Part shown: positions 6,692 to 20,699 of the stretch, piece by piece
Layout of the letters: every line of letters starts with the position of its first letter
Position numbering within the stretch: position 1 is the first letter of the stretch
Assembly: GCA_902798605.1 (NCBI GenBank)
Contig: CADBXH010000042.1
Location: forward strand, 1 to 20,699
From: an uncultured Ruminococcus sp.
Lineage (GTDB): Bacteria > Bacillota_A > Clostridia > Oscillospirales > Acutalibacteraceae
Direction of reading: 5' to 3'
Length of the DNA stretch: 20,699 nt
Notes under the pieces: model-generated
Database searches by the model: none
What the model was told of the DNA's origin: nothing
The model's input: the letters and a program-made list of their open reading frames with translations, nothing else
Program-made: the position numbers and the translations under genes

Positions 6692-6707
6692 TTTGGTGGA
6701 GAATGCT
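6692..6707 (-). repeat. Duplicate of the tRNA-Val 3' end (att-like)
   Basis: TTTGGTGGAGAATGCT is identical to 6991-7006, which covers the acceptor strand and CCA of tRNA-Val. The copies lie 299 bp apart in the same orientation. A second tRNA copy is not present; only this end is duplicated. Confidence 0.6.
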
Positions 6708-6992: not shown

Positions 6993-7069
<77 letters not shown>

Positions 7070-7952: not shown

Positions 7953-10658
7953 TCAAATGCTCTCTATTTCTTTGATTATTTCATCTGCGGATTTGTAACT
8001 CTCTGTGGTTTTGGCGTTTGAAGTGTTGAACGCTTGGTTTAATAATTTATCATATTCTTCTTCCGACACTTCTTTGTCATCCCACTTAAAGCTTTCCTGT
8101 CCCTGAACCGCTTTGTTTGCCCTGCCTGTGTGGATCGTATTGAGCTCGGAATTTTCAATCTGTAGTATATAATCGCTTTGGACACCTGTATGGACTTCAG
8201 TAGTCATAATACAGTTTCCTTTCTCAATATATACTAAGTTTTCAGTTCCAATTGCCTTTGAACATACTGTTCCATCGCACAGCCAGCATAACTCGCTCAT
8301 AGGACCTCTGCCCTTTAGATGAACAAACAACTCGGGAATATCGTCGTCGTCCACATAAACCAATGCGTACTCATAGTCGCCGGGATCATCCTTACTGTTG
8401 ATGTAATCAACATACGCTTTTTTCCAGCTTTCATCCTTGGGGGCTTCGGTCGCGGGCTCCTCTATTTCGGCTTTGGGCTCTGAAATCTTATATGTATTAA
8501 GTTCAGAATCAACAACGTAGCCGTCAACTACCCACATCGGCTTCATAATGTCGATTTCAAACTCTTCGCAATCTTGTTTAACCAGCTTCTTTGACTCTTC
8601 ATCAAACAAACTTACACCGTACATAAAGTAAATATTTTCGCGTTTGGTCAAGTCTTTGGTAACAAAATAATTTTTGTTCTTGCACGATCCTGCATCGCCT
8701 TCGGAAACGGACTTCTCTCCGGTTTTCAAGTCAATCGTATACATATTAAAATCACTTGTATCCTTTGAGAAGAATATGCCGTATTTTCCGTCCTCGGTCA
8801 CAGCCTGCCAATCATAATTGCTGTCTATTGGCTCGGATTTTTCTATCTTTTTATCCGCGCCGACAATAGCAATATACAGGCTGTCGTCGCTCTCATACAA
8901 AAAGCAGACTTTATTTTGAATTATATCTGCTATCACTCCGTTTGAGGACTTAACCAAAGCATCTGTTTCTTCGCTTTCAATATCATACGTGTACAAAGAG
9001 GTGTCTTTATTATAGAATATGGTGTTGCCTGACAAGTAAGCGCTGAAATAATAATACTTATTGGAAATAGCTTTTTGCGTCCATTCATCGATTTTTTCCG
9101 ACGACTCGGATTCCAAATCGTATTTCATCAGACTGCATTTATACTCGCCGCTGTCGGGATTTACAACGTCAACATAATAGATACAATTGTTTTTGAAGCC
9201 GAACAGATCCGCTCTTCCCTCGGTCTCAAACAGCTCCTCGCTCTCTGAGCCCTCTACGGTAGTTTTATAAACCTTATCTCCTGATTTTGTGCTTTTGTTT
9301 TGACTTCCGTAAACGTCAAAATAGACCGTTTCGCCGTCTGTTAAAACATTGAGCACATTTTCGTTATCAGCGATGCTTTTTCCCTCGGAGTCAATGCTTT
9401 CTTTATAATAAAGCGCCTTACTGTCCGCGGCGATTATTTTTCCATTAACAGATACTATTCCTCTGCCCGAAACATAATCTGACTCCGATTCCGATCTTGA
9501 TATTGCGTCTTGGATCCTGAAGTCTTTGTTTCCGAAGATTACCGGGTGGCTATTATGTGTTTCGCAGCATTCTTTGCCGTTTTTCTCCAGGGAATGATCT
9601 ACAGCCTTCTGCAATGTCCAATAATTTTCGCCGTCATCTGTCTTTTTATATAATCCGGAAACAGTAGTATAAATGCTTTTCTCGTTGTAATCATCACAAA
9701 TTACATCGTTGTATGCTACGACCGCGTCCGCTCCCTTATCCGTTAGAGTTTCTGCCATATATGCGTCTTTTCCGGAACAACTCGCGCCGAGATACATCAT
9801 ACTTCCGTCTAAATCGCCCAGCTTATTGTCAAGGCATTTATATGTGATCGCGAGCCTTCCTGATTCGGTAATGAGCAAATCGCCCGAAAGGAATTCATCA
9901 ATATAGCCTAACTCTTTTGTGTATCCGATCGGATCCTCTTCAAACGCTTCTTTGTCGAGCTTTTCTCCGATCTCTATATAAGAATGAGTTTTTTCGTTAT
10001 ATCCTCCGCGACCTCTTATTATTATGATTTTGTTTCGTCCTATTTTGGATAATTCCTCAATTTTAAGCGGTATATACTCCTCATCATCCGCGGATATTCC
10101 CTCATCACTTTTTTTATCCTCTTTGTTATCATCATCTGAGTTATCATCGGAATCGATATAATCTTCTTCGGGGTCGAATATCTGGATATACGGCTGATAT
10201 TCGGAATCAGTATTCGGATCCGAATTACTATCAGGGATAGTATAAACATATTCCATTCCGCTGTTTAACTTTATCCAAACAGAGCGCTTGTCGGTAACGT
10301 TATATTCCTTGATCTTTCCGTCATTAAGCAATACCTTAGTATAATCAACGATCGCATCAATAAAATCATCCTTTTTGTCGCTTGGGATATTTCCGTTTTC
10401 GTCCGCGTATTCGTCTGACACATCCTTAATTTTTGTGTTTATTGTGAAATAGTCCTTAAAGCCGTCTTTTGCGAGTTCCTCATTGTTGGACCCTAAAATG
10501 AATACCAGCAAAACGGCAAAAACCACAACACAACAGCCTCCGATAATCGAAACTGCAATTATCAGGCCCTTATTCTTTTTGTTTTTAATCGGCATACCGC
10601 AGTTTACACAACGCTTTTCTCCTCGGTAAATTTCATATCCGCAATTTTTACAACGCAT
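7953..10658 (-). CDS. Zinc-ribbon, single-span membrane protein with possible caspase-like domain
   Basis: This 901-residue protein starts with a zinc ribbon (CKNC at 3-6, CVNC at 17-20), followed by a membrane span (about 31-56). Acidic linkers lead to a region (about 195-380) resembling caspase/clostripain-fold peptidases. IIIIRGRGGYNEKTHSYIEIGE sits where the His motif is expected, and YLGASCSGKDAYMAETL, followed by GADAVVAYNDVI, resembles the Cys motif, with Cys294 as the candidate nucleophile. The His position appears to be Arg217 (CGC), so the domain may be inactive. Residues about 395-735 show repeated Tyr- and Asp-rich strands typical of a beta-propeller-like region. A C-terminal domain with YALVYVDDDDIPELFVH follows. 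AAAGGAG precedes the ATG. It lies directly after the terminator of the Ubl operon in the same orientation. The caspase-like call is inference from motifs. Confidence 0.7.
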   Translation of the reverse strand: MRCKNCGYEIYRGEKRCVNCGMPIKNKKNKGLIIAVSIIGGCCVVVFAVLLVFILGSNNEELAKDGFKDYFTINTKIKDVSDEYADENGNIPSDKKDDFIDAIVDYTKVLLNDGKIKEYNVTDKRSVWIKLNSGMEYVYTIPDSNSDPNTDSEYQPYIQIFDPEEDYIDSDDNSDDDNKEDKKSDEGISADDEEYIPLKIEELSKIGRNKIIIIRGRGGYNEKTHSYIEIGEKLDKEAFEEDPIGYTKELGYIDEFLSGDLLITESGRLAITYKCLDNKLGDLDGSMMYLGASCSGKDAYMAETLTDKGADAVVAYNDVICDDYNEKSIYTTVSGLYKKTDDGENYWTLQKAVDHSLEKNGKECCETHNSHPVIFGNKDFRIQDAISRSESESDYVSGRGIVSVNGKIIAADSKALYYKESIDSEGKSIADNENVLNVLTDGETVYFDVYGSQNKSTKSGDKVYKTTVEGSESEELFETEGRADLFGFKNNCIYYVDVVNPDSGEYKCSLMKYDLESESSEKIDEWTQKAISNKYYYFSAYLSGNTIFYNKDTSLYTYDIESEETDALVKSSNGVIADIIQNKVCFLYESDDSLYIAIVGADKKIEKSEPIDSNYDWQAVTEDGKYGIFFSKDTSDFNMYTIDLKTGEKSVSEGDAGSCKNKNYFVTKDLTKRENIYFMYGVSLFDEESKKLVKQDCEEFEIDIMKPMWVVDGYVVDSELNTYKISEPKAEIEEPATEAPKDESWKKAYVDYINSKDDPGDYEYALVYVDDDDIPELFVHLKGRGPMSELCWLCDGTVCSKAIGTENLVYIEKGNCIMTTEVHTGVQSDYILQIENSELNTIHTGRANKAVQGQESFKWDDKEVSEEEYDKLLNQAFNTSNAKTTESYKSADEIIKEIESI

Positions 10659-10745
10659 ATCAAAACTCCTTTAATATATAACAGTTCACAACATACAGCG
10701 TCTTTGTGCTTAAAATCCAAATAATACCAAAACACGCTATTATTC

Positions 10746-10775
10746 AAAAACGACGCCGAAATTGACGTCGTTTTT
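10746..10775 (-). terminator. Terminator of the Ubl-conjugation operon
   Basis: 12-bp arms AAAAACGACGCC / GACGTCGTTTTT with one mismatch and a 6-nt loop, 33 bp beyond the stop codon of the last JAMM gene, with a T-run on the minus strand. Some read-through into the 901-residue protein gene is possible, as no clear promoter for that gene is visible. Confidence 0.8.
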
Positions 10776-10808
10776 TGATTTTAATCGGGTTTTTGCAACA
10801 GTGATACT

Positions 10809-11885
10809 CTAATCGTTCACTAAGCTTGACGGGAACTTCAATGTCTGACCTATAAAAATGATGTTTTCGTCCGAAATACCGTTGATCTCCATTATTTTGT
10901 CTTTATTAGCCTGATAATCAATACCCAGCTGCGCGCAGATCGCGTCGAGCGAATCGCCGGATTTTACGGTGTACTTGATATATTCACCGTCTCCGTTTTG
11001 CTTTTTAAGCGCGTTGACCGAAGCTGATAATTCATCGATCTTTTTCTGCTGATCGTCAATAGTAGTCTTCTGCTTTTTTACCGTATCGGCTAAGCTTTCA
11101 TCGCCGAGCTGCTGCTCGTACTGCTCTTGCTTACTGTTTTGCTCTTCGATGATCTGCTTTTGGCTGTTGAGCATACCCGTCAGGACAACGCAGTAAACCA
11201 AGCTTGCGACCGCGATCAACAGCGCAAGGGTTATCGCAGTTTTTGATATCCAGCTTGTTCTCGCCCTTGGCGCTTCCTGCACGGTGTCGTTATCCTTCTT
11301 TTGGGGCGGTTCGATCTTTATCGGCTTTCCGACGTCGTCATATATATAAAAACCCCTGAGCTTTTCGATTTTGCCTTTCTTCCACTGGAAAAAGCCGCGC
11401 AGATTTTGGATCGGGTCGATAACATACGCCACCTGGAACGGCAAGTCAAAATAGTTCTCGTGGATAAACAGATCGTAGTTTGACAAAAATATACCGTAGC
11501 TCGGGTGGGTATGCTGCCAGCCGACGATTTTTTTATCGGGATATTTTTTTTCATGCACCTTGTGGATATAGTTCCAAGTTTCGTGCGTAAAAGTCAGCGT
11601 TGAAGCGGATGCGTCGGTATACTTTGCCTCAATATAGTCGGATATAACAACGTGGAGCTTTCCGTGCTCCTCGCAGAAATCGCCGAGGATTATTGTTCCG
11701 CGTTCATTATCGACATCTTCAAGTGCGTATTTTTCGAGCGCCTTATAAACATTTTGCTTTATGTAGACCTTTACGTCGTCGGTTTCGACCTCGCCAATGG
11801 TCAAAAAGTTCATCGGCAGCTGCACGCCGCCCGTACTCTTCTCTTGGCTTTCTTCGGAAATATTTATATCAAAATTATCTTCCAT
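10809..11885 (-). CDS. JAMM/JAB metallopeptidase with membrane span and LysM domain (deconjugase candidate 1)
   Basis: This 358-residue protein carries a JAB1/MPN domain (about 38-200). The complete JAMM set is visible: Glu61, then HTHP (His125, His127), Ser135 and Asp138. Enzymes of this family cleave isopeptide bonds to ubiquitin-like proteins, so removal of the Ubl encoded upstream is expected. A membrane span (about 226-250), a Gln/Lys/Glu-rich probable coiled coil, and a C-terminal LysM domain (about 306-352, YTVKSGDSLDAICAQLGIDY...) follow; LysM binds peptidoglycan. This predicts a cytosolic peptidase tethered to the cell wall. I start at the ATG at 11885 with AAAGGAGA upstream; a start at 11924 would swallow that site. 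Last gene of the operon. It is a paralogue of the JAMM protein encoded at 12279-13526. Confidence 0.93.
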   Translation of the reverse strand: MEDNFDINISEESQEKSTGGVQLPMNFLTIGEVETDDVKVYIKQNVYKALEKYALEDVDNERGTIILGDFCEEHGKLHVVISDYIEAKYTDASASTLTFTHETWNYIHKVHEKKYPDKKIVGWQHTHPSYGIFLSNYDLFIHENYFDLPFQVAYVIDPIQNLRGFFQWKKGKIEKLRGFYIYDDVGKPIKIEPPQKKDNDTVQEAPRARTSWISKTAITLALLIAVASLVYCVVLTGMLNSQKQIIEEQNSKQEQYEQQLGDESLADTVKKQKTTIDDQQKKIDELSASVNALKKQNGDGEYIKYTVKSGDSLDAICAQLGIDYQANKDKIMEINGISDENIIFIGQTLKFPSSLVND

Positions 11886-11954
11886 ATAAACCAAATCTCC
11901 TTTACACGTAAAGTCGAAAAACAACTGCCATTCAACCCGCCGCTGGGGTTTCTG

Positions 11955-12278
11955 TCAGCGTATGAGCGCTGTTCCGCACATAGGACAAAAATTATTGATC
12001 GCCTTGTTCCTTGCGCCGCATTTATGGCAAAAAACAAATTCTCTCGATATATTTGGAGCGGTGTCAAAAATCTCGATCTCAAAATCTTCATCCGCCGGTG
12101 TATCGTCAAATCGGGGCGCGCTGATAGTTCCGTCGCATCCGAAGGTCGTGCAGCCCTGATTGTCGATCCAGCACCCCTTGTGGTGGGGCATATCGCATCT
12201 GCTGCAAACAACTATATCATTAAAATCCGTCATCGGCGATTTGCAATAGGGACAAATCTTCCCGATATACCTACTCAT
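11955..12278 (-). CDS. Small RING-like zinc-finger protein with zinc ribbon (E3 candidate 2)
   Basis: A 107-residue soluble protein. Eight zinc ligands in cross-brace order (C9, C12, C25, C28, H33, C36, C43, C48) form a prokaryotic RING-like domain containing MPHHKGCWIDNQGCTTFGC. An acidic linker with EDFEIEIFD follows, and then a zinc ribbon (CHKC, CPMC). RING domains recruit charged E2 and promote transfer of ubiquitin-like proteins. The spacing of all eight ligands is identical to that in the large protein encoded first in the operon. The ATG directly follows the TAA of the upstream JAMM gene with no spare bases, and no ribosome site is visible, so it probably depends on translational coupling. 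An adaptor role without ligase activity is possible. Confidence 0.85.
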   Translation of the reverse strand: MSRYIGKICPYCKSPMTDFNDIVVCSRCDMPHHKGCWIDNQGCTTFGCDGTISAPRFDDTPADEDFEIEIFDTAPNISREFVFCHKCGARNKAINNFCPMCGTALIR

Positions 12279-13526
12279 TTACTGCTGACCCTGCTGAGCC
12301 TGCTGATCTGTCTGCTGACCCTGCTGCTGACCCTGCTGAGCCTGCTGGTCTGTCTGCTGACCTTGCTGCTGATCCTGCTGTTCGGTCGCCTGTTCTGTTG
12401 CCTGCTCACCGTTCTCCGAATTCTCCCCTTGGTTTTGTTCCGTCTGGGGATTAGATGATTTTTGAAGTTGAGCCAGCTTTGCGTTAGCGCTGTTCAGCTG
12501 ATTAGTCAGGTTGGTGTTCTCGTTTTGGAGCGTAACGATCCAGTCACCGATCGAAATCTGCTGCTGCTGATTATTTACCATTGCCTCCGGAATGTTTCCG
12601 ATCTTGGCTTTCAGCGAATTGATCTCGCTTAACAGACTGCCGCAGAAAATCATCAGAATCACTATCGCCATAACCATAACGCCGATAATAATATTTCTGA
12701 TGAGCGAGCTTTTCTCTCTGTATACCACGTTGTTGCCCGAGACTTCCTCTTCGTCCTGATCAACGTTGATCTTTACGCCTGTTTTGTCAAACACAAAGAA
12801 GCCCTTGCAGCGCTCAAGATTTCCGTTGATCCAGAAATAGAAGCCCTCTATATTCTGTATCGGGTCGACAACATAAGCGACCTGATTCTCTTCGTTGAAA
12901 AAGTTTTCGTGAATGAATTTGTCGTATTCCGAAAGGAAGATACCAAAGTCCGGGTGTGTGTGGATCCAGCCGAGTATCTTATATTTCGGGTACTTCTTTT
13001 CCGCTTCCTGATGGATATACTCCCAGCTTTCATGAGTGAATTTCAATGTTGTGGGGGTTCCCTCGCAATGCTTCGCCTCAATAAAAGCCCGGATAACAAT
13101 GTGCGTCTTTCCGAATTCTTCTATTACGTTTCCGAGGATAACTCCGCCGCTCTCGACCTTTGTTTTGTCCTTTGTAAAGCGGTGGATCTCTCTGTAAGTT
13201 TTTTGAGAGATGTATATTTTTTTATCCTCGTTGTTCTGCTCTCCTAACGGAACGATATTCTGCGGAAGCGTCAGGTCAAGAGCAGGCGATTTCTTTTTTG
13301 AAGCGGAAGTCTTTTTTTTGCCTGAACCTGCTTTTTTTCCTGCAGCTGCTTTTTTGTTCGCCGCTGCTTTCTTGCCTGCAGCCGCTTTTTTGCTCGCCGT
13401 TGCCTTTTTGCTTGCGGCTGTTTTTTTGCCGGACGTCGATTTTTTGTCTGATGAAATTTTTTTGTCTGACGTCGCTTTTTTATCCGACGCCGGTTTCTTT
13501 TCTGATGCCGCGTTTTCGTTTGCCAT
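12279..13526 (-). CDS. JAMM/JAB metallopeptidase with membrane span, Lys-rich N-tail and Gln-rich C-tail (deconjugase candidate 2)
   Basis: A 415-residue protein with ATG at 13526 and GAGGAG upstream. Residues 1-80 are a Lys/Ala/Ser low-complexity tail of KKAAAGKKAA-like units. The JAB1/MPN domain (about 100-265) has every JAMM residue: Glu125, HTHP (His189, His191), Ser199 and Asp202. A membrane span lies near 283-305, then a coiled-coil-like stretch and a Gln-rich tail with a 14-residue tandem repeat. The expected role is removal or processing of the operon's Ubl. The many lysines in the N-tail could bind nucleic acid or acid lipids, or accept Ubl. The gene begins 11 bp after the protease gene and abuts the small RING gene. 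Confidence 0.93.
   Translation of the reverse strand: MANENAASEKKPASDKKATSDKKISSDKKSTSGKKTAASKKATASKKAAAGKKAAANKKAAAGKKAGSGKKKTSASKKKSPALDLTLPQNIVPLGEQNNEDKKIYISQKTYREIHRFTKDKTKVESGGVILGNVIEEFGKTHIVIRAFIEAKHCEGTPTTLKFTHESWEYIHQEAEKKYPKYKILGWIHTHPDFGIFLSEYDKFIHENFFNEENQVAYVVDPIQNIEGFYFWINGNLERCKGFFVFDKTGVKINVDQDEEEVSGNNVVYREKSSLIRNIIIGVMVMAIVILMIFCGSLLSEINSLKAKIGNIPEAMVNNQQQQISIGDWIVTLQNENTNLTNQLNSANAKLAQLQKSSNPQTEQNQGENSENGEQATEQATEQQDQQQGQQTDQQAQQGQQQGQQTDQQAQQGQQ
12288..12371 (-). repeat. 42-bp tandem repeat encoding Gln-rich tail
   Basis: Two copies (12288-12329 and 12330-12371) of a 42-bp unit encode QQQGQQTDQQAQQG. They form the C-terminus of the second JAMM protein. The GCTGACCCTGCTG-type sequence could vary in copy number by slippage. 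Confidence 0.75.
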
Positions 13527-13537
13527 GATTATTCTCC

Positions 13538-14494
13538 TCAATCAATAATATCTATTTCAAAATCCGTGCGTTCGGATGAATCGGTATTATTGTTGTTATA
13601 GTTATTATTGTTATAATTATTGTAGTTATTATAATTGTTGTAGTTGTTATTATTGATGTTATTATCGATTTTGTTCTTGCGGTTCCGCACTACAAGAACT
13701 ATTATCAGAACGATGTTAAGTATTACCGAAACAGCCAGCATTGCCGAAAGAATATAAATTGCGTACAGCGGTTCCTCATGCTTTACTGTCCCGGGTTCAT
13801 TGTCGTCCGCTTCGGTTTGCTCCTGAGTGGGTTCCTCAACAACAAGGTCGGCAACATTTCCTTTTTCGTCGATTTCGATCTTGCTGTCTTTAAGATAATT
13901 GACCACCGTGTCTATCGGGATAGCAAGTCCGATTCCCTCGGCGTCGTTCATTTTTCTGGAATTTACACCCACAACTTCTCCGTTGTCATTCAAAAGCGGT
14001 CCGCCGCTGTTGCCGCTGTTGATAGCGGCGTCGGTCTGAATGTATTTTTGCGTGCCGACGACCCTCTCTTTTGCAGAAACAACGCCCTTTGTAAGGGTAT
14101 AATCCATATTTTTCGGCGCTCCGATAGCATAAACATCACTGCCGACGACTAATTTTTTTGTATCGCCGACCGCAAACGGAGCATAATCGGCGTCCTTTAC
14201 ACCGATAACGGCTATATCCAAATTCTCATCCATTGCGACTACAGCGCCGTCTTTGATGTCTCCGTTGTACGACGAAACCTTAACGTCATCTTTATCCTCG
14301 ATAACATGGGCGTTTGTGATAATGCAGTTTTTGCCGATGGCAAAGCCGCTGCCGAGAGAGTCTCCCGAGTAAATCACAAAAACGGAGTCGTACGCTTTTT
14401 CCGCGTCAAAGCCGACCGCGCCGACCGAAACGAAGGAGGCAAATATCACCGCCGCCACACAAAAGAATGATAAAAGCCTTTTTATTGTTTTCAC
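13538..14494 (-). CDS. Trypsin-like (HtrA/DegP-type catalytic domain) membrane serine protease
   Basis: A 318-residue protein with an N-terminal signal peptide or anchor (about 5-26) and a trypsin-fold domain. The triad is His63 (ITNAHVI), Asp93 (ENLDIAVI) and Ser163 (NSGNSGGPL). A membrane span (about 245-268) follows, then a basic stop and an Asn/Tyr-rich tail ending TDFEIDIID. This predicts an external protease domain and a cytosolic tail. No PDZ domain is seen, unlike full HtrA. I choose the GTG at 14494: GGAGG at 14506-14510 sits 11 bp upstream, whereas the TTG at 14512 overlaps that site, and the ATG between them opens a three-codon frame closing on GTGA. It lies between E2 and JAMM genes in one transcription unit. 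Substrate unknown. Confidence 0.9.
   Translation of the reverse strand: MKTIKRLLSFFCVAAVIFASFVSVGAVGFDAEKAYDSVFVIYSGDSLGSGFAIGKNCIITNAHVIEDKDDVKVSSYNGDIKDGAVVAMDENLDIAVIGVKDADYAPFAVGDTKKLVVGSDVYAIGAPKNMDYTLTKGVVSAKERVVGTQKYIQTDAAINSGNSGGPLLNDNGEVVGVNSRKMNDAEGIGLAIPIDTVVNYLKDSKIEIDEKGNVADLVVEEPTQEQTEADDNEPGTVKHEEPLYAIYILSAMLAVSVILNIVLIIVLVVRNRKNKIDNNINNNNYNNYNNYNNYNNNNYNNNNTDSSERTDFEIDIID
13585..13670 (-). repeat. AAT/AAC-rich microsatellite encoding Asn/Tyr tail
   Basis: Near-periodic ATT/GTT triplets on the plus strand encode a run of Asn with interspersed Tyr (NNYNNYNN pattern) in the protease tail. Low complexity of this kind is prone to length change. Confidence 0.7.
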
Positions 14495-14536
14495 GATAAC
14501 ATTCGCCTCCAAAAGATTTATAAATTCAATCTAAGC

Positions 14537-16507
14537 TTATTTTGTATTAAATACCAATACAGAGTTACCGATAGCGATCGCGTCACCTTGTCTAAGTACA
14601 GTTCTGTTGGTTCTTCTTCCGTTAACAATAGTACCCATAGGCGTTCCGCAGTCTTGCAGCACATACTTGGTGCCGTCCATCACGATATCGCAGTGGTGCG
14701 GACCGACAAGCTTGTCTTTGAACAGAACGATCGTGTTCTTGCCGTTGTTACCGATGCTCGTTGTTCCCGCGAATACAAGGTATTCCTTACCCTCGAATTC
14801 ACCGCGGATAACCTTAAGCCAAGCCTGTTTAGCGAACTGCTCAAGTAAGCCTACACCGAGGCCGATCAGCACGCCCATAATGAGGATAGCAACGCCGCGG
14901 GCAATAAGATCGTTCGGGATGACCTTGCAGATAAAGTCAAACGCAAAGCCGCCGAGAAACGCTCCGGCTGTACCGCCGATGCAGCAGAACAGGATGCGCT
15001 TAAGACCCGGACGGATCAAACCGACAGCGACTCCTACGCCGAGGCCCAAAATAGCCCAGCCCAGACCTCTTACAAGAGCTCCTAGAACAAGCGACGGATC
15101 ATTGTCTCCCGACGTTAGCGAAGCGTACATCATCTGCGCCAAATCGCCACTGATAAAGCCGAGCACAAGCGAAATACCCGCGCCGATAGCGCCGTAAATA
15201 GCGGCTTTTTGTCCCGAACCGTAGAACACACCTTCACCGATGCCGAGCGCCAAGCCGATAAACAGCGCTATGATCGACGACCATATGGCGGTCGATACTC
15301 TGCCTACGCGCTTCATTCCCTCTTTCATTTGATTCTCATCTTTATTGAAATCAATTTTATACGCGTTATACAGCTCTTCATCTGATTTCTCTTCTAATTC
15401 AACGATTTTCTTAAGATGCTCTTTTGCTTCCGCTGAGTATTCTCCACTCTGATACCACTTTGAGCGAGCTTTTTGGTCATTTTCGGGATCTATTCCGTTT
15501 TTCCGGCAATATTCCTTAAATTCCGGATCGATTGCTTTCCACTCGTTATTTTTCTCATCTGAATATTTTAAGTATTGTGAAAGATGCGTATATCCGAACA
15601 TATTTGCAACACTGGCATTATCGGTAAATCCCTTTACCAGTTCGCTGAACGCAAATCCTACAAGCGCGCCGATAAGCGCCCAAAGAAGTCCTTTTTGGAA
15701 GATAGTCTTAAAGTTGACGCCCGATTTTCCCCCGGGTGTGCGAACAGTCTGCATCCTCTGCGCTGTCGGAACAAATTCGATCCCTGCGAGCTCTTCCGGA
15801 GTGATGTCAAAATCGTTGGCGTTAGGGTCTTCGTCAAACGACATCGCCTCATATGCTCCGGGCTGAGTATTAGCATTTTGCGTAGCATCGGGAGCGGTAG
15901 GAGCGACGGGAGCCGCTGTAGACTGATTATATAGTTCTTCCTGTTTGGGCTCTTCGGCCGGAGTCTGATCCTCCGCGGCAGGAACCTCCTGATCGTTTTC
16001 ATCAAACAGGTTGATCTCAACACTGTCCTTCGCCGACGCATAGTCGGAATAGAACAGATCGATATTGCCGACCGGGAACAAATGCTTGTTTTCCATCGCC
16101 CACTTAGCCGCGTCGGCAGAAAGCGGACTGTAGGAGTTCCACGATTTATACTGGATCATATCGCCTATATTAACGATGATATCGCTCAGCGATTCGCCCG
16201 CGCCCCAAATGTCGCCGATGCAGATCTGGCCGTCCCTGAAATTCGGGTGCCAAATCGGAGTTTGTATGGAACAAATCGGCTTATATCTCGGATATTCGGA
16301 CGGAAGCGAGATTTCAACCTCGTGTCTTCCGAGCGTTTCAATGCTGCCGTCCGGCAACAGGTAAATGCCGTTTACAAAATAAGTAACGTGATATTTTTCG
16401 GGCGGTTCCTCGCCAATCGGAGTTACGATAATATTTTTGTGACCGGCAAAGTTTTTCTTGACTTCCTCATAATCGGAATAAAGTCTTTTTATTCTTGCAG
16501 GGGTCAT
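14537..16507 (-). CDS. E2-like conjugating enzyme fused to polytopic membrane region and FHA domain
   Basis: This 656-residue protein begins with a UBC fold (about 1-150). LPSEYPRYKP, then HPN (87-89), catalytic Cys96 in GQICIGD, and the following helices (PLSADAAKWAMEN) run in the order of eukaryotic E2s, with one residue less between HPN and Cys. It should carry the Ubl as a thioester and pass it to lysines. A linker with VEINLFDEND precedes several Gly-rich membrane spans (about 273-550). The last 80 residues are an FHA fold (SIG...PHHCDI...GTIVNG). The usual phosphothreonine-contacting Arg, Ser and Asn appear replaced by Asn, Gly and Met, so phospho-reading is doubtful. AAAGGAG precedes the ATG, 14 bp after the E1 gene. 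An E2-membrane-FHA fusion places conjugation at the inner membrane face. Confidence 0.92.
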   Translation of the reverse strand: MTPARIKRLYSDYEEVKKNFAGHKNIIVTPIGEEPPEKYHVTYFVNGIYLLPDGSIETLGRHEVEISLPSEYPRYKPICSIQTPIWHPNFRDGQICIGDIWGAGESLSDIIVNIGDMIQYKSWNSYSPLSADAAKWAMENKHLFPVGNIDLFYSDYASAKDSVEINLFDENDQEVPAAEDQTPAEEPKQEELYNQSTAAPVAPTAPDATQNANTQPGAYEAMSFDEDPNANDFDITPEELAGIEFVPTAQRMQTVRTPGGKSGVNFKTIFQKGLLWALIGALVGFAFSELVKGFTDNASVANMFGYTHLSQYLKYSDEKNNEWKAIDPEFKEYCRKNGIDPENDQKARSKWYQSGEYSAEAKEHLKKIVELEEKSDEELYNAYKIDFNKDENQMKEGMKRVGRVSTAIWSSIIALFIGLALGIGEGVFYGSGQKAAIYGAIGAGISLVLGFISGDLAQMMYASLTSGDNDPSLVLGALVRGLGWAILGLGVGVAVGLIRPGLKRILFCCIGGTAGAFLGGFAFDFICKVIPNDLIARGVAILIMGVLIGLGVGLLEQFAKQAWLKVIRGEFEGKEYLVFAGTTSIGNNGKNTIVLFKDKLVGPHHCDIVMDGTKYVLQDCGTPMGTIVNGRRTNRTVLRQGDAIAIGNSVLVFNTK

Positions 16508-16521
16508 ATCTATTTTCTCCT

Positions 16522-17709
16522 TTAAATGTTATTGAATACTTCGGTTTCATCCGCGGAAAACTCAAAGTAGGTAGTATCTACTCCTACCCTGCCGCAAATG
16601 ATATGGAGCAGAGGGATACCGACTTCATACAAAGTCTTATCCAAGAAGTCCTCGTCTCCGCGAAGGACGTGAAATGTATCAAACTGCATTGTCGCTCCGC
16701 AATCGGGGCATACCAAAGACTCACCTTTGAGCTTGTGCACGGGCGTAAACAAATCCATTTTGTGACCGCAGGTACAGTGTGCTTTTGTCGCGATATCGCG
16801 GTCAAAATCAACGACCGCGTTCTCGCCGAGCTCTGCCTTTATATTGCTCAACAGCTCTTTGAGCGTCATTGTCTTTACAGACCACGGCTTCTCGATGATT
16901 TTTTCGTATGTATCGTGGCTCATACAATCCTCTTTGCGCTGATATTCAACAACGTAAGAGTCGTGCGTAAGTCCGTTGAACACATAGCCTTTTCCCGCCA
17001 GTGTGGGCAGACCGCGATCCGAGTGGAGCAGCTTTAACATCTCCTGAACCTGGATTCCCGCGATTACCGACGACGAGGTCGGTGTTGTCGGGATTTTGCC
17101 CTCTGCCATCTGGCTGTGGGTGAGCAAAGCACAGGATTTTCTCTTGTTGATAAGCATCCAGTCGGTCTCGGTCATTGTACATTCGTAGCACGCGCCCTGT
17201 CCGGGGATAAACACACGGGCAAAGCCGTTGAGCGCCTCGATCGCGCCGTCGATCCACGGGACGTTGACGTGATAACACGACTGGTTGATAGCCAGCCTCG
17301 CCTCGCGGTTATCAAGACCGCCGAGGACGACGTCCATACGGCGAAATACTCCGAGTCCCACATCGTCGATGATGTTGTTCACGAACGCCTTCGTTTTTAC
17401 GTCCGGGTTCATCTCCTTGACGCGTTCCGCGGCAACCTCTGCCTTGTATCTGCCGACATCCTTTGCCCTGAACAAAACGGATCTTGTCAGGTTGGTGCTC
17501 TCGATCGAATCCATATCAAAGATCAGGATCCTGCCTATGCCGAGCAGCGTAAGGTTTTTGATAAGCTCATTTCCTATCGCGCCCGCACCGACCACCATTA
17601 TTGTGGCGTTTGTCAGCCTTTCCTGCTCCCACCACGGGATAAGACGCAAACGGCTGTATCGGTCTTCCTCAAAGTCGTCGTGCTTTAATTCAAAATTATT
17701 CTCTGTCAT
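16522..17709 (-). CDS. E1-like (ThiF-family) Ubl-activating enzyme with C-terminal zinc module
   Basis: A 395-residue protein that would adenylate the C-terminus of the Ubl with ATP. VVGAGAIGNE (39-47) is the Rossmann nucleotide motif, Asp67 and Arg76 (STNLTRSVLF) are the usual ATP contacts, and IPTTPTSSSVIAGIQVQE is a standard E1/MoeB segment. CYEC (174-177) is the first half of a structural zinc site, and Cys193 in KRKSCALL is the best candidate for the thioester Cys. The C-terminal third is unlike MoeB/ThiF and carries CTC (312-314) plus CPDC (334-337), probably another zinc module for E2 or Ubl contact. I choose the ATG at 17709; the TTG at 17718 overlaps the Ubl stop and lacks a ribosome site. 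Five bases separate it from the Ubl gene. Confidence 0.93.
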   Translation of the reverse strand: MTENNFELKHDDFEEDRYSRLRLIPWWEQERLTNATIMVVGAGAIGNELIKNLTLLGIGRILIFDMDSIESTNLTRSVLFRAKDVGRYKAEVAAERVKEMNPDVKTKAFVNNIIDDVGLGVFRRMDVVLGGLDNREARLAINQSCYHVNVPWIDGAIEALNGFARVFIPGQGACYECTMTETDWMLINKRKSCALLTHSQMAEGKIPTTPTSSSVIAGIQVQEMLKLLHSDRGLPTLAGKGYVFNGLTHDSYVVEYQRKEDCMSHDTYEKIIEKPWSVKTMTLKELLSNIKAELGENAVVDFDRDIATKAHCTCGHKMDLFTPVHKLKGESLVCPDCGATMQFDTFHVLRGDEDFLDKTLYEVGIPLLHIICGRVGVDTTYFEFSADETEVFNNI

Positions 17710-17714
17710 TTTCC

Positions 17715-17984
17715 TCAACCCGCGGTGATCTCAGGCTGAAGTCTCAAAACATCTCCATCCTTAATGCCTGCTTCTCTCATTGTCTGGCTTTCAAGAAGCT
17801 GACGGCCTGTAACCTTGTGAATGAATTTATAGCTGATGGGGTTTCCATCGGGGCCGATCGACGGAAGCTTGATTTTTTCTACAAGCTTAACCATAATGAT
17901 GCCGCATTTGATATCGTCGGGAAGTCCGACCTTCTGCTCCTTATTTCCGGTAGCGTCAACAATAATTACATTTACTTTTCCCAT
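17715..17984 (-). CDS. YukD-like ubiquitin-like protein (beta-grasp)
   Basis: An 89-residue small protein fitting a ubiquitin-like beta-grasp: strand (KVNVIIVDATG), second strand with KVGLP, helix (IIMVKLVEKIKL), then YKFIHKVTGRQLLESQTMREAGIKDGDVLRLQPEITAG. The TGRQLLES...AGIKDGDVLRL ending resembles YukD/EsaB-type Ubls. It ends in a free glycine (Gly89), so no processing would be needed before activation. AAGGAGA precedes the ATG. It sits just upstream of E1 and E2 genes, and no type VII secretion genes (EssC ATPase, WXG100 proteins) are in the window, so conjugation is the more likely role. Fold assignment is by pattern and context. Confidence 0.87.
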   Translation of the reverse strand: MGKVNVIIVDATGNKEQKVGLPDDIKCGIIMVKLVEKIKLPSIGPDGNPISYKFIHKVTGRQLLESQTMREAGIKDGDVLRLQPEITAG

Positions 17985-18034
17985 AACTGATCTCCTTAAT
18001 AATTTTATTTGTCAGTCTCCTGAAACGGAGGCGT

Positions 18035-18062
18035 TTTATATTAATTTTTTGATAATGTTCAA
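18035..18062 (-). promoter_or_regulatory. Candidate internal promoter upstream of Ubl-E1-E2
   Basis: TTGAAC (18057-18062), 16-bp spacer, TATAAA (18035-18040), in the 88-bp gap between the large RING gene and the Ubl gene. It could uncouple Ubl/E1/E2 output from that of the RING protein. A weak GGAG/CTCC hairpin follows without a T-run. Confidence 0.4.
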
Positions 18063-18072
18063 GCTTTACGGA

Positions 18073-19728
18073 TCAATAATAATCGTAGGAAGACTCGTCA
18101 TCATAATCATAAAGGCTTGAGCTGCTCGAACTGTCTTCCTTGGTCTGGTATACCACGCCGCTGATCAGCTTGACATTATTAAGCTTGCCTTCTTTATACA
18201 GCTGATTGATTCGGGTCACACCTTCAGTTGGTAGCTTATTGCCCGCGTTCTCGGTCTGTTTGATTACTTCTTTGCAAAGATTATCAATAAGCTTTTGGGT
18301 CCTTTCGCTTTGGGTATCAAAGTAACTTACCGATTCCTTTTCCAAATCGGAATATTTCTCAAGGAATTTGAACTCGCTTGATTTTTTTGAGTAAGAAAAG
18401 AGCCAATATTTCACTTCATCATTTTCGAAACCGCTTTCGCTTTCAACCTCAAGAACGACCCAGCCGTACTCGGAATCATAATAGGCGTCTTTAAGCTTGA
18501 ACGATGAAGATCCCAGCTTATCGGCACATATTTTGCTGCACACAGCAACCGCGTTTTCCGCGACAACATCCGATTTATCGCTTTCGCTGCTCACGGCAGT
18601 ATACGCTTTTTCATATTCACCCTTTGCCATTAATTTATCCGGGGAGTTGAAAAGCTTTGGTATCAAAACAATGGCAAGAACGATAACAACTACTGCCGCA
18701 ACTGCGATTCCCGCAATTATAAGCGGTTTTTTCTTTTTTGATGCATTGGTCTTTTGAAGATTTGTATTAAACTGAGAAATAGCGGAATTTACATTCGCGT
18801 CTATTTGCAAATCAGCTTTTTGTCCGCACTTCGTGCAAAATTCCTGATTAGGCGCAAGCTCAGCGCCGCATTTGCCGCAAACACGTTGTTGCGGGGCTGC
18901 AGCAGCCGGTGTGCCGCATTTTACGCAGAAGCTCTGACCGTCATTGATCTCAGCGCCGCAGTTTGTGCAAACGCGCGGCTGAGGTGTGACCGATGCGGCT
19001 GCAGGCACAGCGGTCTGCGCCGTGTCAGGCATATCCGCCGGCGGAACAACAGGTGTATCGACCGGAGCAATGGGTTCTGCCGCGGGGGTCACATCTGTTT
19101 CCCAAATCGGGGGTGTAACAGATGTTTCGGGAGTTGGCTCTGCAACGGGTGCGGTAGTCGTCTCATCCGCAAGTACGGTATTCGGCATGGGTGTAGACTC
19201 AACTACAGGCGCAGGTGTCGGTTCGGGAACCGGTGCAGCTGCGGGTTGGGGAGTCGGCGCAGGAGCCGGTACTGCGTTTGGTACAGGCGCGGGAGCCGGC
19301 GGTACTGTATTCTGCACAGGCGGTGGCGCAACGTTCTGCATAGGCGGGGGCGCAACGTTCTGCATAGGCGGGGGCGCAACAGCGCCCGCGTTTGTCTGAG
19401 GCGCGCCGCATTTTGTACAGAAGCTGTTGCCCGGGGCTACCTCTGCTCCGCATTGACTGCAAACATTGCGCGGCGGCGCCATTACAGGTGTTCCGCACTT
19501 AGAACAAAAAGCCTGCCCAACAACAAGCGGCGCTCCGCAGTTTATGCAGTTATCTGCCGCGTTTGGATCGACATACTGCGCCGTGCAGCCGAACGTGGTG
19601 CATCCTTTGTTCTCGATCCAGCAGGCTTCATGATGAGGAATACCGCAAGACGGGCATACTTTTACAGCTTCGCCTTCTTCGATCGTAGTTTTACAAAACG
19701 GACATTTTTTTCCAATGTATTCTTCCAT
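18073..19728 (-). CDS. RING-like, multi-zinc-ribbon membrane protein (E3 candidate 1)
   Basis: A 551-residue protein, first gene of the operon. Residues 9-48 form the same RING-like zinc cross-brace as the small protein at 11955-12278 (C9, C12, C25, C28, H33, C36, C43, C48). Four double-CxxC zinc ribbons follow, two before and two after a long Pro/Ala/Thr-rich linker that contains an 8-residue repeat. A Lys-rich stretch and membrane span (about 342-365) come next, then an outer domain of about 180 residues ending in an acidic Ser/Tyr/Asp tail. The RING and ribbons should be cytosolic, where they could gather charged E2 and substrates. I start at the ATG at 19728 with GGAGG upstream; a start at 19818 would place the promoter inside the gene. 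Confidence 0.87.
   Translation of the reverse strand: MEEYIGKKCPFCKTTIEEGEAVKVCPSCGIPHHEACWIENKGCTTFGCTAQYVDPNAADNCINCGAPLVVGQAFCSKCGTPVMAPPRNVCSQCGAEVAPGNSFCTKCGAPQTNAGAVAPPPMQNVAPPPMQNVAPPPVQNTVPPAPAPVPNAVPAPAPTPQPAAAPVPEPTPAPVVESTPMPNTVLADETTTAPVAEPTPETSVTPPIWETDVTPAAEPIAPVDTPVVPPADMPDTAQTAVPAAASVTPQPRVCTNCGAEINDGQSFCVKCGTPAAAAPQQRVCGKCGAELAPNQEFCTKCGQKADLQIDANVNSAISQFNTNLQKTNASKKKKPLIIAGIAVAAVVVIVLAIVLIPKLFNSPDKLMAKGEYEKAYTAVSSESDKSDVVAENAVAVCSKICADKLGSSSFKLKDAYYDSEYGWVVLEVESESGFENDEVKYWLFSYSKKSSEFKFLEKYSDLEKESVSYFDTQSERTQKLIDNLCKEVIKQTENAGNKLPTEGVTRINQLYKEGKLNNVKLISGVVYQTKEDSSSSSSLYDYDDESSYDYY
19310..19381 (-). repeat. 24-bp tandem repeat encoding VAPPPMQN units
   Basis: Three near-identical 24-bp units (19310-19333, 19334-19357, 19358-19381) in the Pro-rich linker of the large RING protein, differing at a few bases. 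Expandable by slippage. Confidence 0.8.
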
Positions 19729-19776
19729 AGTGAACCTCCACTCATTTGTGTATTTGTTCGTACTAAAACACTTATT

Positions 19777-19805
19777 ATTATACTTGAAGCAACATATTAT
19801 GTCAA
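19777..19805 (-). promoter_or_regulatory. Main promoter of the Ubl-conjugation operon
   Basis: Perfect TTGACA (19800-19805), 17-bp spacer, and perfect TATAAT (19777-19782) on the minus strand, giving a start near 19770 and a leader of about 40 nt to the ATG at 19728. No obvious operator is visible, so constitutive vegetative expression is the simplest reading. Confidence 0.88.
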
Positions 19806-19924
19806 TAATTTCGCGCAATTCTTTTGATGTTTTCTGTGTATTTTTTACAAATAATTCGATGTTTTGACATAGATATTATGCTTTTCATAATTTGATGATC
19901 CCAATTGTTACACTGAAAAAGCAA

Positions 19925-19953
19925 AAAGGCTGCGCGCTAAGCACACAGCCTTT
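19925..19953 (-). terminator. Terminator after the decayed ABC-transporter gene
   Basis: AAAGGCTG / CAGCCTTT outer stem with partly paired GC-rich middle, followed on the minus strand by TTTTTGCTTTTT. It insulates the operon promoter from the upstream remnant. Confidence 0.75.
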
Positions 19954-20013
19954 GAGTTATCAGATATACTGATCATTATATTTCTTTGTATTCTTGGGAT
20001 TATCTTTACCTCA

Positions 20014-20589
20014 TCAGGCAAACTGACTGTTGTAAAGATCGGCGTATTTGCCGCCCTTTGCCATCAATGTTTCGTGGTTGCCGACTTCCTTGATGTCGCC
20101 GTTTTCCATATAAAGGATCATAGCGGCATCGCGGATAGTAGACAGACGATGCGCGATAACAAAGCTGGTACGTCCCTTCATCAGGGTCGCCATAGCGTTC
20201 TGGATATCCTGCTCTGTATGAACGTCAACGTTACTTGTCGCTTCGTAGAGGATCATAATTTCGGGATTCGCGATGATAGCGCGCGCGATGGTGAGGAGCT
20301 GTCTTTGACCCTGAGAGATATTCTCAGCGCCCTTGGAGAGCATCATATCGTAGCCGCCGGGCATTGTGCGGCAGGCTTCCTTCCAATTCTCTTCGGTACC
20401 GTTCTCATTACCCCAGTTGAGGTTCTCGGCTATATCGCCGGTGAACAGTACGTTCTTCTGCGGAACGTAGCCGATGGTGTCGCGGAGCTCGTCAAGCTTG
20501 TAATCCTTGACGTTGACGCCGTCCGAGATCATCGTACTGACCATAGACGGAGCAAGCAACTGTCCAAAGGTCGAGATGCTAACAAACAT
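20014..20589 (-). pseudogene. Decayed ABC transporter (exporter-type), internal deletion
   Basis: A 191-residue frame fuses the first membrane helix of an ABC exporter subunit (ISTFGQLLAPSMVSTMISDGVN) directly to the middle of its ATPase domain (VKDYKLDELRDTIGYVPQ). The rest of the membrane domain and the whole Walker A P-loop are missing. The Q-loop (YVPQKN), signature (ISQGQRQLL) and H-loop (IAHRLST) remain. Walker B reads MILYEATS where LDEATS is usual, so its Asp is lost too. No ribosome site precedes the ATG, and the frame is blocked upstream by TAG. It cannot bind ATP normally and is almost certainly a remnant. Related genes are usually heterodimeric multidrug-type exporters. Confidence 0.85.
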
Positions 20590-20611
20590 AAAGTTGATTA
20601 TTTGTAACTAT

Positions 20612-20699
20612 TCAGCACCCTATCCCAAAAACCTGATTGATCTGACCTGATAAAACCATCTTAACCGCGTGATAAGAATCAAACCCGTTTTTGCGGGCG
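20612..20699 (-). CDS. C-terminal fragment of an unidentified open frame (window edge)
   Basis: One minus-strand frame is open from the window edge to a TGA at 20612 and encodes about 28 residues including KNGFDSYHAVKMVLSGQINQ. I do not recognise it with confidence. It lies just upstream of the truncated ABC-transporter remnant, so the end of an inserted element such as a transposase gene is possible, but the frame may equally be open by chance. Confidence 0.25.
   Translation of the reverse strand, partial: ARKNGFDSYHAVKMVLSGQINQVFGIGC

Follow-up and report, generated by a model that had tools for sequence, protein, structure and literature searches.

The window analysed here, the whole stretch of 20,699 nucleotides of contig CADBXH010000042.1 from an uncultured Ruminococcus sp. 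(GCA_902798605.1), holds between positions 10,809 and 19,728 a single operon of eight open reading frames (ORFs), all on the minus strand, which encode a ubiquitin-like modifier (Ubl), E1 and E2 enzymes, two RING-type proteins, two JAMM peptidases and a trypsin-like protease (Table 1). Gene order, strand and domain content are as a previous sequence-only reading of this DNA had stated: all ORFs are present, the domains match Pfam above the curated cut-off and the motifs are in place. Scores amount to 40.2 and 44.3 bits for Prok-RING_1 (PF14446) in two proteins, 44.2 bits for YukD in the modifier, 191.5 bits for ThiF in the E1, 38.1 bits for UQ_con and 45.4 bits for FHA in the E2, 109.4 bits for Trypsin_2, 33.5 and 25.6 bits for JAB and 43.5 bits for LysM. 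Among the catalytic motifs, the E2 has HPN at residues 87-89 and Cys96, the two JAMM proteins have HxHx7SxxD at 194-207 and 138-151, respectively, and the protease has TNAH and GNSGG.

The perfect promoter claimed for this operon is indeed found about 48 bases ahead of the RING1 ATG at 19728, which is most likely the true start of this gene, because the promoter is located downstream of the listed TTG at 19818. At the closing end, the claimed terminator can equally be recognized as a hairpin with a T-run by sequence and fold (whole-stretch z-score -1.9), though it is absent from the list of the terminator scan. The likely E1 start, ATG 17709, is located 5 bases past the Ubl stop, and translation of the two genes is therefore likely coupled.

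Table 1. Features of the operon and its borders in the window
Feature	Position	Strand	Description	Basis
Promoter	19777..19805	-	sigma-70-type, TTGACA-17-TATAAT	12/12 matches; only 12/12 site listed in 10000-20699
RING1	18073..19728	-	N-terminal Prok-RING_1, zinc ribbons, Pro-rich linker, one predicted transmembrane (TM) helix, C-terminal part predicted outside	Pfam, hydropathy
Ubl modifier	17715..17984	-	YukD family, 89 residues, end ...VLRLQPEITAG, no extension	Pfam
E1	16522..17718	-	single adenylation domain with Cys196, then C-terminal domain with Cys315/317/337/340	Pfam, predicted structure
E2	14537..16507	-	UBC domain (HPN, Cys96), six predicted TM helices, C-terminal FHA	Pfam, motifs, hydropathy
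Protease	13538..14512	-	trypsin/HtrA-like serine protease, signal sequence, C-terminal TM, protease domain predicted outside	Pfam, motifs, hydropathy
JAMM1	12279..13541	-	JAMM domain, one predicted TM, Gln-rich tail	Pfam, motifs, hydropathy
RING2	11955..12278	-	Prok-RING_1 and zinc ribbon, 107 residues, no TM	Pfam, hydropathy
JAMM2	10809..11924	-	one TM between a JAMM domain predicted inside and a coiled-coil-like stretch with LysM predicted outside	Pfam, motifs, hydropathy
Terminator-like hairpin	10745..10776 (about)	-	hairpin and T-run at the closing end of the operon	sequence and fold

Membrane topology, a prediction from a simple hydropathy script and positive flanks, assigns most products of the operon to the cytoplasmic membrane. 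The six helices of the E2 bring its UBC and FHA domains to one side, presumably the inner one, while JAMM1, JAMM2 and RING1 each have one predicted TM with a positive N-terminal flank and a catalytic or RING part predicted inside. The trypsin-like domain, flanked by signal sequence and C-terminal TM, is predicted to be extracellular and would face outward together with LysM and the C-terminal part of RING1. The description of the operon as mostly membrane-bound thus holds for the E2, both JAMM proteins, RING1 and the protease, but not for RING2, for which hydropathy predicts no TM and which is hence not itself membrane-bound. With such a topology the tagging and untagging chemistry would be located on the inner membrane face, and the protease probably does not mature the Ubl, because its domain is predicted outside the cell.

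The arrangement of these genes is beyond chance, because the identical order recurs in many genomes. An E1-based scan of GTDB contigs recovered 32 loci, 29 of them with a Ubl match, short and decayed ones counted, and none in L030, L031 and L032; in the archaeal L031 and L032 the E1 is the sole matching component. Genome searches contributed three more operon loci (L067-L069) as well as L070, seemingly identical to L027. The loci are mostly labelled as Clostridia, across which the gene order recurs with pairwise E1 identity as low as 58%, with L016 labelled as Synergistaceae and L028 as Acidobacteria. The neighbourhood survey across Clostridia that had been proposed along with the sequence-only reading was counted on 21 complete loci with enough flank: Ubl, UBC and JAMM occur in 21/21, RING in 20/21, FHA in 19/21 and the protease in 17/21 (missing in 4/21), with two JAMMs in 13/21 and LysM detected in 13/21. 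That reading had made itself dependent on a correct Ubl fold call and on conservation of the genes together in relatives, and the YukD match and the recurrent order speak for both. Variant sets include L068, with Ubl, E1, a 191-residue E2, a JAMM protein with LysM (by eye) and RING as a minimal inventory, and L028, with a 197-residue, by eye tandem-looking Ubl, an E2 of 260 residues, a separate TM protein weakly similar to the E2 of the window (26 bits) and a VWA-RING protein. The Ubl is rare, being present in 7/391 sampled genomes of the class, at least three of the seven already known carriers, and in 1/246 and 2/247 genomes of two seed families, solely the known carriers; because of this rarity combined with high identity, the sequences suggest horizontal spread of the operon. 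L026 (5781-10816) has the look of a copy that decayed or was rearranged: a repeat ORF of 1403 residues ends there with the in-frame C-terminal part of the Ubl, a short E1 comes next, and this genome has no Prok-RING match. Two carrier genomes also encode, remote from the operon (L033, L035), proteins with Prok-RING, zinc ribbon and hydrophobic segment, with no Ubl genes beside them in the short stretches available.

The Ubl is the slowest-changing component of the operon. Mean pairwise identity among 21 loci, window included, is 90% for the Ubl, 72% for the E1 and 64% for the E2 (UBC part 80%), compared to 46% for JAMM1 (16 loci), 52% for JAMM2 (19 loci), 43% for the protease (17 loci) and 37% for RING2-type proteins (20 loci, a set that may mix paralogs). 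Conservation extends to the C-terminal EITAG at residues 85-89, as assessed with the best 120 of 585 Ubl homologs from a protein search (list 1) and the best 120 of 176 homologs retrieved with a Ubl fusion as query (list 2); E(I/V)TAG is kept in 233/235 Ubls of both lists together, an invariance that may be overstated since the lists hold best-scoring homologs. In list 1, 118/120 sequences retain the motif, with P0016 and P0118 deviating near the end, and of these 43 stop at ITAG, 67 continue with 1-10 extra residues and 8 with 11-60. In list 2, it is present in 115/120, every one with a partner of more than 60 residues, the other five being proteins without Ubl, and the residue that follows in the long fusions is Ala in 112, Ser in two and Gly in one. 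In the 233 Ubls, the selection pattern itself determines positions -4 to 0, while at positions -9 to -5 a single residue accounts for at least 99% of the sequences and +1 onwards is variable, so conservation falls sharply after the ITAG Gly. What lies beyond varies from nothing to short tails, CxxC/2-TM domains and lipoproteins. Among the partners in list 2, 96/120 clusters combine CxxC pairs with two TM segments, for part of which precomputed annotation gives zinc-ribbon families, and 19 have one TM or a signal anchor, several with a lipobox. Ubl fusions take the Ubl slot of the operon in L015, L023, L029 and L067, and these patterns are best read as a modifier often made as a membrane-tethered precursor.

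The E1, 398 residues with one ThiF match, has GxGxxG at 44-49 and CxxC at 177-180. Cys196, which by analogy we take to be the candidate catalytic residue, is invariant in 19/19 sequences, as are Cys177/180, Cys265/His268 and Cys315/317/337/340. By sequence, UBA1 chains are the best PDB matches (E 4.5e-35 to about 3e-34), and the structure model built from 19 sequences (predicted local distance difference test, pLDDT, 86.5) finds UBA3 as best Foldseek match. When 50 rows of the structural alignment were compared for their end point, MoeB, ThiF and MccB were found to stop at residue 261-270 of the model, and UBA1, UBA6, UBA7, SAE2 9dqb_B and UBA3 2nvu_B to align up to 387-390 (root-mean-square deviation 3.7 to 7.7); the remaining SAE2 rows stop at 306-308 and the remaining UBA3 rows at 270-272. 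The far region of the chains that align up to 387-390 is presumably the UFD, and the model hints that the C-terminal E1 domain might be UFD-like and recruit the E2.

Starting from the computed genes, domains, catalytic residues, synteny, ITAG conservation boundary and fusions, a mechanism can be proposed in which we infer adenylation, thioesters, E2 recruitment, the E3 role, the cleavage site, topology, substrates and signal. The E1 with its single adenylation domain would adenylate the YukD-family Ubl at the C-terminal Gly and load it on Cys196, from where it would be passed, perhaps via a UFD-like C-terminal domain, to Cys96 of the E2 anchored by six TM helices. The RING proteins could then help to place the Ubl on membrane or membrane-near substrates. 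The two membrane-anchored JAMM peptidases with their catalytic domain inside, one with an outer LysM, would mature precursor or fusion Ubl by cutting after ITAG, and the same peptidases would strip the Ubl from substrates. FHA, LysM, the externally placed protease and the outward portion of RING1 might receive inputs from kinases and the envelope. Because domains, residues, predicted topology and synteny agree on a membrane-located charge-transfer-remove set, as had been proposed from the sequence, the operon probably encodes an apparatus that conjugates a Ubl and removes it again on the inner side of the cytoplasmic membrane. Weighing against this interpretation, a profile built on the C-terminal 128 residues of ten E1s recovered no E1 among 14 PDB matches (E up to 10), and fold comparison of the Prok-RING proteins did not separate RING from PHD and gave weak fold matches; family name, these matches and gene context hint that the RINGs might act as E3. 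A more far-reaching view, offered tentatively and with close to an even chance of being right, sees here a bacterial Ubl branch with all steps confined to the membrane, in which a near-invariant modifier is often the N-terminal part of membrane proteins and would be released at ITAG|Ala by membrane- and wall-anchored JAMMs, as a bacterial equivalent of ubiquitin fusion genes in which conjugation is coupled to envelope state.

The same chemistry might on the other hand serve phage defence or genetic conflict, with the operon induced on infection and phage or membrane proteins tagged, a role that we consider quite possible though somewhat doubtful. Besides the sporadic occurrence of the Ubl described above, an integrase cluster upstream in L001, L003 and L022 (Pfam for the L001 member) fits this role, as do the helix-turn-helix (HTH) genes (9/21) and M78-peptidase genes (6/21) upstream of the complete loci, which are reminiscent of CapH+CapP; CapW or CapH+CapP is found at 219/544 Bub operons (PMC13373217), and other bacterial Ubl systems apparently act mainly against phages (PMC12687455). 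However, no HTH/M78 pair exists in the about 970 bases upstream of RING1 in the window, the M78 proteins of L001 and L005 differ from a soluble DNA-damage sensor in having, by eye, a TM-like segment and a further tail, and the modifier is extremely conserved rather than fast-evolving. A defence island was equally sought in the flanks and found weak: 52 PADLOC families matched below 1e-10, each by at most 3/149 flank proteins, with no clear island. The role may be envelope-coupled regulation or stress response, or phage defence.

Alternatively, the Ubl might never be transferred and stay fused to membrane proteins as a docking domain with E1, E2 and RING as scaffold. The plentiful long fusions could be explained in this way, but the E1 and E2 active-site Cys and the JAMM motif are retained, conservation falls off past the Gly and the exact ITAG end is the most frequent one among the short forms (43/118), which makes this scenario unlikely. 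A part in type VII secretion, like YukD/EsaB, is suggested by the Pfam family and by a WXG100 cluster on the same contig as the operon in G288, and is nevertheless highly improbable: WXG100 scores above cut-off in only 4/14 operon-carrying genomes and never inside the operon, EssC not having been searched, and three of these four genomes have extra YukD genes, two of them beside a WXG100 cluster and those two without ITAG tail. These type VII paralogs of carrier genomes (L073, L074) stop at the last strand, and the YukD-family paralogs L075 and L076 have different tails without ITAG. A sulfur-carrier pathway of the ThiS/MoaD type is just as improbable; the E1 adenylation domain is similar to ThiF/MoeB too, but the E1 shares its synteny with UBC-type E2, RING and JAMM genes, and none of the eight genes is a thiamine or molybdopterin gene. 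In G288, the WXG100 cluster on contig C89 (first 18 kb = L069) lies about 13 kb past the upstream genes of the operon.

Bacterial E1/E2/RING/JAB operons with a YukD-like Ubl were reportedly predicted by Burroughs, Iyer and Aravind in 2011, and their component list, YukD-like Ubl, E1, E2, prokaryotic RING and JAB, is like that of the window. Features of this class that are found in the window are a Ubl with C-terminal Gly beside the E1, a UBC-fold E2 with catalytic Cys, Prok-RING proteins, with weak fold support, and JAMM with HxHx7SxxD. For a UFD-like domain at the C-terminus of the E1, another trait of the class, structural alignment and sequence profile give differing answers, as described above. 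Titles, abstract openings and passages of the literature did not yield the clostridial membrane layout or the Ubl fusions. The suspicion that the layout of E2-membrane-FHA, LysM-linked JAMM, dual RING and surface protease may be undescribed can therefore be upheld only in part: the kind of system has been known since the 2011 prediction, whereas what seems new is the arrangement at the membrane together with the fusion precursors. Partners of eukaryotic ubiquitin fusions bind zinc. Like these fusions, exemplified in a passage of PMC4197634 by the ribosomal proteins L40 and S27, the present ones combine an N-terminal modifier, a conserved end and a partner; they differ in that the partners are CxxC/2-TM proteins and lipoproteins, and the likeness is presumably convergent. 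PMC4506424, PMC4197634 and PMC3701619 cite the 2011 prediction, and one of them describes such operons as uncharacterised and sporadic, naming Actinobacteria, Planctomycetes and Acidobacteria (PMC4197634), in contrast to the mainly clostridial branch presented here. The anti-phage system Bil (BilABCD) equally unites Ubl, E1, E2 and JAMM in one operon and has a JAMM that processes the Ubl precursor, as is proposed for the maturation here. However, BilA has two Ubl domains compared to a single YukD match in the window Ubl, and BilD an inactive and an active adenylation domain compared to one ThiF match; BilB has a CEHH motif (PMC11354881), and HPN...C is present in the E2 of the window. The operon of Caldiarchaeum subterraneum likewise clusters Ub, E1, E2, RING and a JAMM-type enzyme, and the passage describing it mentions neither a YukD-type Ubl nor an E2 that spans the membrane nor LysM (PMC4197634).

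Should the proposed conjugation cycle hold, E1, E2, RING and JAMM act together in some Clostridia much as in eukaryotes, with fusion precursors and with a modifier that is conserved far more strongly than any other component. Such a cycle would provide a small and tractable model of protein tagging restricted to bacterial membranes and bear on RING-type helper function outside eukaryotes and archaea and on whether precursor fusions arose more than once, while the sporadic distribution, integrase-linked in three loci, bears on the question of stress response versus immune system.

As to mobility and neighbouring genes, no relative of the Ubl was found in viral contig or phage sequence collections, and E1 relatives on plasmids amount to nine records, all below 60% identity. 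The sole plasmid E1 covering at least 80%, from a Crinalium plasmid (pCRI9333.03, L064), adjoins two small Ubl-like ORFs (by eye), an E2 and a JAMM gene; within 10748-15280 an LxWRD/LxWR motif occurs in the E2 C-terminus, the JAMM protein and two hypothetical proteins, possibly as a shared docking motif. The M78-type peptidases of L001 (6171-6854) and L005 (7870-8679) adjoin the operon, and their tails behind the TM-like segment end in a CxxC-containing stretch. Of the two loci examined for att repeats, L003 has none and L022 none that convinces, and no 14-base copies of tRNA ends occur in L003, L005 and L010. In the window, the last 14 bases of a tRNA-Val (6993-7069 and 6694-6707) are repeated about 290 bases off on the same strand, which could be the trace of an old integration site. 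Beyond the terminator, positions 7953-10658 encode a 901-residue protein with an N-terminal zinc-ribbon-like stretch that scores below the Pfam cut-off, a single predicted TM and a long remainder, the gene having a GC content of 40% versus 48% for the operon. The upstream end of the operon is adjoined by a truncated-looking ABC transporter ATPase ORF of 191 residues (20014-20589), and two adjoining short lipoprotein-like ORFs with nearly identical N-termini are located at 2116-2879.

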